From: Bacteroidota bacterium
GTDB taxonomy: Bacteria; Bacteroidota; Bacteroidia; UBA8524
DNA: 64,000 bases
NCBI GenBank assembly: GCA_008933805.1
Contig: WBUH01000001.1
Location: 248,001-312,000 of the forward strand
Direction of reading: 5' to 3'
Every line of letters begins with the position of its first letter. Within the stretch, counting starts at the first letter, position 1. Made by a program: the position numbers and the translations under genes. This document shows positions 18,817 through 57,969 of this stretch, piece by piece. Below the pieces are notes generated by a model. It saw only the letters and a program-made list of their open reading frames with translations. It was not told the DNA's origin and ran no database searches.

Positions 18817-18832
18817 TCGCTATAGCGTTTTT

Positions 18833-18883
18833 ATAAAACCACAAAGGCACAAAGTATTATACTTTGTGCCTTTGTGGTTTTAT
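18833..18883. terminator. bidirectional terminator, 24-bp perfect stem
   Basis: Arms 18833-18856 and 18860-18883 are perfectly complementary around loop TTA, with A and T ends. It lies between the converging genes ending at 18816 and 18905 and can serve both. The stem is unusually long for a terminator. Confidence 0.85.
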
Positions 18884-18904
18884 ACTTAATTGAGTTGGCG
18901 GTGC

Positions 18905-44209: not shown

Positions 44210-44983
44210 ATGATAAATTTTGAGTACATAGAAGCCAACAAGCAACTGTTCCGCACACAGTTTTTAAATGCACAACCGTTTCCGCACATTGGGATTGATG
44301 GTATTTGTGATGAGGCCAAACTGACAGAATTGTATAACAACATTCCTGAAATTGAAACCAAAAGTGCTGATTATGTTTTTGCGGGTGAGAAGTACGAAAA
44401 ATCAAAATTTAAACAACTGGGCGGTGTGTTTGAGGAATTGCACAACGACCTTACCAGCGAACGGTTTAACAGTTGGTTGTGCTATGTAACGGGTGAAGAT
44501 GTTTTTATTGACCCGCAGTTTTACGGCGGCGGAATACACCAAGGCCGTAAGGGTAGTTTTTTAGATATGCACGCCGATTTTAACTACCACCCGCTGCACG
44601 AAAAATGGTTTCGCAACCTTAACCTGCTGTTATACATTAACAAAGACTGGAAACCTGAATATGGCGGACAACTGAGGTTGGAAGACAGCCGCACAGGTGA
44701 AAAAACAGAAGTAGCAGTACCTTTTAACCGCTTGGCAATTATGCACTGCCGGGGCTATACGCTACACGGTTACGACCCGATTAGCTTTCCTGAAGGCACG
44801 TACCGCACCTCTATTGCGGCGTATGCCTATACCCTGCACGAGCACGCGTTAGAAGCTCCCCGCACAACGGTATGGCACGTGAAACCCGAAAAAAGTTTTG
44901 GCAAGTACCTCATCAGCAAAATTTGGGTACCCGCTGTAAAGCTGAAAAGCTTTTTTACTAAAAGCGAAACGGCGAAGCATTAA
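44210..44983 (+). CDS. 2OG-Fe(II) oxygenase family protein
   Basis: This 257-residue protein has the core of prolyl-4-hydroxylase-like dioxygenases: DMHADFNYH (H121, D123), YGGQLRLED, and HCRGYTLHGYD with H186 as the distal iron ligand and R199 as the likely 2-oxoglutarate anchor. The N-terminal 100 residues resemble an adaptor (PFPHIGIDGICDEAKLTELY). It probably hydroxylates a small molecule or a sugar-linked substrate with 2-oxoglutarate and O2. It follows the tyrosine pathway but a repeat element separates them, so shared function is not assumed. Confidence 0.85.
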   Translation: MINFEYIEANKQLFRTQFLNAQPFPHIGIDGICDEAKLTELYNNIPEIETKSADYVFAGEKYEKSKFKQLGGVFEELHNDLTSERFNSWLCYVTGEDVFIDPQFYGGGIHQGRKGSFLDMHADFNYHPLHEKWFRNLNLLLYINKDWKPEYGGQLRLEDSRTGEKTEVAVPFNRLAIMHCRGYTLHGYDPISFPEGTYRTSIAAYAYTLHEHALEAPRTTVWHVKPEKSFGKYLISKIWVPAVKLKSFFTKSETAKH

Positions 44984-45096
44984 TTAACTGACAGCATATA
45001 AAATGCTGCCCTTTTAAATGTATTTACCCTCCAATGGTTTTAAACCATCTGAGGTTACATTCTTTAATAGCGAAGGGTTTAATGCCCGTCGCAAAC

Positions 45097-45127
45097 AACA
45101 AAGGCCACCCCAATGGTGGCCTTTGTT
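45097..45127. terminator. terminator for the 45149-45892 gene
   Basis: A 13-bp stem AACAAAGGCCACC / GGTGGCCTTTGTT around CCAAT, with A and T runs on both sides. It is 22 bases past the stop at 45149. Confidence 0.85.
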
Positions 45128-57081: not shown

Positions 57082-57180
57082 GATGGATTGAAATCCATCT
57101 TTGGTGCGATTACCTGAAGCGAGCGGACTTAAGTCCGCTCGCTTCAGGTAATCGCAAAAGCAACGGGTTTTAACCCGTTG
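57082..57180. repeat. left REP-like three-hairpin element
   Basis: Hairpin i is 57082-57099 (GATGGAT / ATCCATC). Hairpin ii is a perfect 46-base palindrome, 57108-57153. Hairpin iii is 57161-57180 (CAACGGGTT / AACCCGTTG). They are followed by GTGAGGTTTTA at 57188-57198. The right-hand copy at 57683-57781 has the same order, orientation and spacing. Confidence 0.9.
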
Positions 57181-57256
57181 CCACACGGTGAGGTTTTAGC
57201 ATGTTGAAACAATTGTTTTCCATTTACCTTTCAAAATCTTGTAGAATGAAACTCCG

Positions 57257-57682
57257 ATGAGAAACAAACTTTCTATTTGGGTGCATTTGGTGTGGGGCAC
57301 AAAGAAACGGGAGCCTCTTGTTTGCGAAGAATTGAGGCCGTTGTTGCTTCATAAAGTTGAAGAGGTTGCTGAATTAAAGGGGTACGATGTTATTGAAGCG
57401 AATACAATGCCCGACCATGTTCACATTCTATTAAGGCTTCATCCATCACAAAATATTAGTGATGTTGTAAAACATATTAAAGGAATTACAGCTCATTGGA
57501 TAAATCAACAACAGCTAACTCCAACCAATTTTGAGTGGCAAGAAGGTTACGGAGCTTTTTCGGTTAGTTCTTTTATGGTTCGAAAAGTTGTAGCCTACAT
57601 TCAAAACCAGCAGAAGCACCATACCGAAAGGGATTTTGAAAACGAAATGATGTATTTAGATATTTTTGGGAAGGATATTTAA
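57257..57682 (+). CDS. REP-associated tyrosine transposase (IS200/IS605-type, RAYT)
   Basis: This 141-residue Y1 transposase has the HUH motif in DHVHILLR (H54, H56) and the catalytic Tyr in KVVAYIQNQQ (Y114). It begins MRNKLSIWVHLVWGTKKREP. The length and sequence fit RAYTs or IS200-type TnpA, which cut and join single-stranded DNA at hairpin ends. It has no TnpB partner. REP-like hairpin elements flank it on both sides in the same orientation. An ATGA overlap links it to a 4-codon frame at 57246-57260. Confidence 0.9.
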   Translation: MRNKLSIWVHLVWGTKKREPLVCEELRPLLLHKVEEVAELKGYDVIEANTMPDHVHILLRLHPSQNISDVVKHIKGITAHWINQQQLTPTNFEWQEGYGAFSVSSFMVRKVVAYIQNQQKHHTERDFENEMMYLDIFGKDI

Positions 57683-57781
57683 GCGGGATTGAAATCCCGC
57701 CCTGTAAAAATTACCCGAAGCGTTTGGACTTAAGTCCAAACGCTTCGGGTAATCGCAAAAGCAACGGGTTTTAACCCGTTG
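57683..57781. repeat. right REP-like three-hairpin element
   Basis: Hairpin i is 57683-57700 (GCGGGAT / ATCCCGC); hairpin ii is 57710-57753 (arms of 22 bases); hairpin iii is 57762-57781 and is identical to the left copy. It starts right after the transposase stop. Confidence 0.9.
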
Positions 57782-57969
57782 GTATAATGTGAGGTTTTAC
57801 TCCGTTGCTATTTCATTCAACAATAACCCTGCAATAATTTCAGTTTAAAGTTTTTTAAATCAACTGATTAAAGTCATTTTGTCTTAATAAGATAAAGTTG
57901 AATTTTGAAAGTAAGTCAAAAAGTCAGTTTAACAGCGTGGTAAACCTTTTGTAGAGTATCCGAGTAATT

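Follow-up and report, generated by a model that had tools for sequence, protein, structure and literature searches.

A TnpA-Y1 subclass 1.2 gene bracketed by copies of a dispersed three-hairpin element: a probable REPtron-like system in a Bacteroidota bacterium

The window analysed here, a stretch of 64,000 nucleotides from a Bacteroidota bacterium, contains a short transposase gene lying between two hairpin-rich repeats, and this locus raises the question of which kind of transposase is encoded and whether the surrounding hairpins are its partner DNA. The original prediction had placed three-hairpin elements with the same order, orientation and spacing at 57082-57180 and 57683-57781 and had named the gene between them a RAYT. 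As indicated in the list below, the anatomy was confirmed for every hairpin: the gene of a 141-aa HUH-Y1 protein (57257-57682) is flanked by two copies of the succession i-ii-iii (hairpins A, B and C), in identical order and orientation, as direct repeats.

57082..57099, + strand: upstream hairpin i (A), GATGGATTGAAATCCATC (sequence, folding, covariation alignment)
57109..57152, + strand: upstream hairpin ii (B), made of foot ATTAC, arm CTGAAGCGAGC, tip GGACTTAAGTCC, arm and foot GTAAT
57153..57160, + strand: linker CGCAAAAG between hairpins ii and iii, on the 5' side of the foot of iii, common to many copies; candidate guide
57161..57180, + strand: upstream hairpin iii (C), CAACGGGTTTTAACCCGTTG (sequence, folding, covariation alignment)
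57188..57198, + strand: GTGAGGTTTTA, 3' of the upstream copy, repeated at 57789-57799
57257..57682, + strand: tnpA, 141-aa HUH-Y1 transposase, assigned to subclass 1.2 (Pfam, NCBIfam, alignment, motif table of PMC6006769)
57683..57700, + strand: downstream hairpin i (A), GCGGGATTGAAATCCCGC (sequence, folding, covariation alignment)
57701..57709, + strand: candidate guide, the linker C-CTGTAAAA (consensus CTGTTAAA) between hairpins i and ii, on the 5' side of the foot of ii
57710..57753, + strand: downstream hairpin ii (B), variable arm CCGAAGCGTTT (sequence, folding, pattern search)
57762..57781, + strand: downstream hairpin iii (C), same sequence as 57161-57180
57789..57799, + strand: GTGAGGTTTTA, 3' of the downstream copy, repeat of 57188-57198
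44978..45103, + strand: degenerate three-hairpin element resembling the family found around a second tnpA gene of the genome, family 2 (R1 match 30.7 bits, E 8e-4)

The upstream and downstream copies are 81% identical over 114 nt without gaps. Hairpin iii does not differ between them, and the changes that separate their hairpins i and ii are paired, as had been proposed; in the central arms (CTGAAGCGAGC upstream, CCGAAGCGTTT downstream) all four differences are matched on the opposite side. The stem of upstream hairpin ii is lengthened by GCG/CGC, and downstream hairpin i begins immediately 3' of the tnpA stop codon. All three hairpins fold as single-stranded DNA on either strand, with z values of -9.6 to -14 against dinucleotide shuffles, none of 200 shuffles folding equally well. 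Elsewhere in the window (18832-18884) there is a perfect 26-nt inverted repeat, TATAAAACCACAAAGGCACAAAGTAT, with a 1-nt loop, whose sequence is unrelated to the three-hairpin elements.

We then looked at the identity of the protein. That an HUH transposase lies between the elements was borne out: the 141-aa protein matches Pfam PF01797 (Y1_Tnp) with 97.7 bits, and all catalytic residues are present, namely the HUH motif D53-H54-V55-H56, WQ at 94-95 and the catalytic tyrosine Y114 within YIQNQQKHH, these residues being invariant in the protein alignment. It is not a RAYT, however. The NCBIfam IS200/IS605 model gives 80.1 bits (cut-off 55) and the REP-associated transposase model (REP_Tyr) 37.8 bits, below its cut-off of 80; this score and a Q in place of the NP of the Y--NP motif rule out a class 2 (RAYT/TnpAREP) protein. 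The nearest solved structures are TnpA of the IS608 and ISDra2 types. The signature of subclass 1.2 is Y---Q--HH, DH[IV]H and WQ, and its members are found mainly in Bacteroidetes and Cyanobacteria, have a low copy number, are about 140 aa long and are related to IS200 (Quentin et al. 2018, PMC6006769). By its motifs YIQNQQKHH, DHVH and WQ we assign the protein to TnpA-Y1 subclass 1.2. The low copy number is also found here, with three diverged genes in the genome, and the 80 named subclass-1.2-like loci that we collected are mostly from Bacteroidota. One published trait is contradicted: the subclass was described as having neither REP nor terminal hairpin structures (PMC6006769), whereas all three genes of this genome are bracketed by them and 36 of 87 tested relatives have shared flank repeats (see below). 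The absence of hairpins is a descriptive trait, revised here, and not a defining one. The REP search of PMC6006769 demanded a GTAG or GTGG tag, and elements lacking this tag may thus have escaped it.

Further copies with the same three-stem architecture were found in the genome by pattern and model searches, on which the counts rest. The pattern ATTAC-N11-GGACTTAAGTCC-N11-GTAAT has 35 exact matches and the reversed pattern none, and a covariance model, with which 88 candidates were scored, detects the element at at least 54 distinct places. Among the 36 copies read, 35 lie outside long ORFs. The central hairpin, 20-24 bp long, was present as predicted but is longer than originally drawn. Its left arms are distinct in 31 of the 34 copies with full ends, with a mean difference of 7.3 out of 11 positions, and yet only 9 of the 374 variable pairs in these 34 copies are mismatched, all nine by transitions. 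In a 30-row alignment, the 11 variable pairs of hairpin B all change on both sides, most of them showing all four Watson-Crick types; pairing reaches 99.5% in B, 94.6% in C and 89.5% in A, and the covariation score is 0.666, compared with 0.169 ± 0.012 for shuffled alignments and at most 0.169 for slid structures. Twenty held-out copies, absent from model building, showed like pairing and further arm sequences, several of them carrying a 10-bp arm on both sides. Both searches select conserved ends and structure, and the invariance of foot and tip is therefore somewhat overstated, whereas arm diversity is not inflated.

Most copies have CTGTTAAA and CGCAAAAG, or sequences close to them, as linkers at the place where a REP would carry its tag; GT[AG]G was absent 5' of the hairpin feet, and no cleavage motif common to all copies was found. 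The guide that had been proposed, GTGAGG-like or GTAG-like, is thus not general to the element: GTGAGG (57188 on and 57789 on) occurs only beside the gene, and GTGAGGTTTTA is special to the two gene-flanking copies and absent after the other copies in the genome. The exact element was found in none of 59 family-level relatives, and a covariance model search of 39 relatives gave two weak R1 hits. No Rfam family reaches its gathering score for the element, the sub-threshold matches being of the chance kind.

Copying of the arms from the insertion site was rejected, since the best match of an arm to its own flank averaged 8.4 out of 11 and that of swapped arms 8.3. Arm distances are nearly uncorrelated between hairpins (r 0.13 for A-B, 0.09 for B-C and -0.05 for A-C), which rules out inheritance of the whole element as a single block and means that the hairpins of a copy form a mosaic. 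Five nearby copies lie at C2:385770-397530; four have the same central arms, one of these with a single mismatch, and three of the four adjoin a separate repeat, TGTCATTCTGACCGCAGGGAAGAATCTTAT.

Is this arrangement peculiar to one gene? A PF01797 search found three Y1 genes in the genome, all of subclass 1.2 and diverged from one another (60% and 45% protein identity), and each lies between directly repeated copies of a three-hairpin unit of its own. Around the tnpA at C2:244416-245200, family 2 consists of CCCTGAATATAAAATTCAGGG, a variable stem with a GGTTTAAAACC tip, and GGCGGGCTTTATGCCCGTCG; it is dispersed in dozens of copies, some of which form tandem arrays with a period of about 240 nt (C5:31155 on). 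A hairpin unit (CAACAGGTATAAAACCTGTTG, GTCGGGTTTTATACCCGAC) that is repeated in tandem flanks the third tnpA (C3:4813-5701), being present two to three times on its left and once on its right. At C11:5267-5326, a family 2 element runs directly into the central hairpin of the family described above (ATTACAATGGTCGCTAGGACTTAAGTCC...), giving a composite of two families.

Subclass-1.2-like genes are present in 192 of 395 genomes of the class, and we examined the flanks of the 87 genes that had 400 bp available on either side, using shifted positions in the same loci as the control. A direct repeat of at least 14 nt between the flanks was seen for 36 of the 87 genes, compared with 2 of 119 shifted positions (Fisher 6e-14), and a perfect hairpin on each side for 30 of the 87, compared with 2 of 119 (Fisher 4e-11). 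Because the shifted positions are largely coding sequence, the difference in hairpins reflects in part an intergenic effect, to which the direct-repeat contrast is less open. Among genes with flank repeats, the direct match exceeded the inverted one in length in 27 cases, the reverse being true in 7. For more than half of the 87 genes, no shared flank repeat was detected at the sensitivity used. In sister genera of the same family, subclass-1.2-like genes lie near other hairpins, some of another tip class (e.g. ACCCCTACGGGGT, GGCTCCGGAGGAGCC). In the two sister-genus genomes read, nothing resembling tnpA or the element was found within 700 bp upstream of clpB, and together these observations indicate that the tnpA locus is lineage-specific.

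The hairpins near subclass-1.2 genes fall into two tip classes, TTNNAA in a GG..CC frame (T1) and CCC-loop-GGG (T2). On a tree of 97 TnpA proteins the tip class changes once, compared with a mean of 15.4 changes for shuffled labels, none of 500 shufflings giving as few. The branch separating the classes has a low support of 49; the clade holding all 17 T2 rows plus one T1 row has a support of 99. Flavobacteriaceae, Chitinophagaceae and Spirosomataceae each have members on either side of the split, and host ancestry therefore does not explain it. The hairpin CCCACGGTTNNAACCGTGGG was found in 22 of the 395 genomes and its reversed pattern in none; 19 of these 22 carry a subclass-1.2 TnpA, compared with 192 of 395 overall (p 2.6e-4). 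In several of the genomes with CCCACGGTTNNAACCGTGGG this hairpin stands only beside the gene, and in many other genomes the T1 hairpin is hardly seen away from tnpA, so that a large dispersed population is not universal.

The reading that best accommodates these data, and that we consider likely, is a REPtron-like system built on TnpA-Y1 subclass 1.2, with a cognate dispersed three-hairpin element. Two directly repeated copies of about 100 nt would define the locus around the gene, the others being dispersed extragenically in the genome. TnpA would bind single-stranded DNA in its folded form and recognise there the conserved tips (GGACTTAAGTCC; TTNNAA-type loops) as well as the foot or linker (ATTAC, CTGTTAAA, CGCAAAAG). 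The stem between tip and foot may serve as a mere paired spacer, which would leave the arm sequence free provided that both arms change together. The enzyme would cut beside a hairpin through Y114 and then rejoin the ends, perhaps guided by CTGTTAAA and CGCAAAAG, the linkers that precede the feet of ii and iii, and copies would be spread or trimmed at single-stranded DNA during replication. Reading of tip and foot is expected by analogy with IS608, ISDra2 and the Marinomonas TnpAREP: TnpA of IS608 and of ISDra2 contacts a loop T, and the Marinomonas group 3 TnpAREP needs T-T-n-A (three of the four loop bases) and a matched stem, of which two tested positions could be changed without effect (PMC8266576). 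On the strand used, an excess of G.T over A.C pairs on the oriented strand (28 against 12, and 17 against 2 in hairpin iii) is suggestive of one functional strand. Against this reading, neither an empty site nor an insertion caught in the act was seen, and the 59 family-level relatives lack the exact element.

The extragenic position of the copies, with 12 in convergent and 16 in tandem intervals compared with 6 in divergent ones (a rough ORF count), would also suit elements that act once transcribed, ending or stabilising mRNA through hairpins whose RNA structure is under selection, the Y1 gene merely sitting in one such site. The G.T excess is what one functional strand would give, but it also fits single-stranded DNA, and 11 of the 28 G.T pairs are in one column. 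A role in RNA alone predicts neither that a separate hairpin family flanks each of the three Y1 genes on either side nor that tip class tracks the TnpA tree across host families, and the Rfam result adds to this; we consider it quite improbable. A decayed IS200-type insertion sequence, whose left and right ends would be the two copies and whose dispersed copies would be internally deleted, MITE-like relics, accounts for the class 1 relationship of TnpA and for direct-repeat ends around a single gene. It sits poorly with a gene that is single-copy per type and diverged between types, with at least 54 element copies for one matching gene and no gene relic between the others, and with brackets that are both full copies of one element. 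The left and right ends of IS608-type elements differ. We regard this origin as unlikely.

The paired changes themselves are a different matter. The original prediction took compensatory change to show that structure is kept; that structure is kept while sequence changes holds, but hairpin-templated correction would give the same pattern. Here arm symmetry would be unselected, a mutation in one arm being copied to the other when replication switches template. In favour of such correction, pairing is most complete in the longest helix and mismatches are rare, whereas foot and tip are nearly invariant and the arm is not, which means that recognition constrains the element as well, even though the search pattern exaggerates this contrast; that all nine mismatches are transitions also fits a purging of disruptive ones. 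We hold this origin of the symmetry to be possible, if somewhat doubtful. It bears on arm symmetry alone and is compatible with the REPtron-like model.

Compared with the REPtrons of E. coli, Stenotrophomonas and Marinomonas, the present system shares a single-copy HUH-Y1 gene flanked by hairpin repeats of which further copies are scattered over intergenic sites, a single gene for each repeat family and a plausible recognition of loop and foot. It differs in having a class 1, IS200-like TnpA instead of a class 2 one, no GTAG/GTGG tag, a directly repeated unit whose three hairpins keep a fixed order, and arms that are hypervariable within one genome. With IS200/IS605 elements such as IS608 and ISDra2 it shares the class 1 protein, the closest solved TnpA structures and the conserved Q after the tyrosine; unlike them, it has a gene of low copy number, flanks formed by complete copies of a dispersed element and no tnpB seen beside it, and the genome holds three genes with 45-60% identical proteins rather than a multi-copy, near-identical gene-plus-ends unit. 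Motifs, size, copy number and host phylum agree with subclass 1.2 (PMC6006769), the presence of hairpin repeats at many members being the difference. The REPtron-like layout as such was already known, and the original prediction recognised it correctly here; its occurrence with subclass 1.2, the three-hairpin unit (apparently undescribed, as had been supposed), the tip-to-clade correspondence and the hypervariable arms are new as far as we searched the literature.

Taken together, these results provide a probable partner DNA for a transposase subclass described as lacking one and present in about half of the sampled genomes of the class. A wider view, that subclass 1.2 consists of phylum-wide single-strand transposases with cognate multi-hairpin elements whose arms are renewed, arm from arm, in a single-stranded stage, is speculative and in our opinion rather unlikely; if such renewal took place, shape and tip code would be kept while each copy gained a new sequence, with lower recombination between copies. 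The match between tip and tree predicts, protein by protein, the hairpin tip that each enzyme should bind. With the arm variation among more than 50 natural copies in one genome, it can readily be tested whether tip and foot alone are read by a single-strand enzyme, and also how palindromes stay perfect as their sequence changes.
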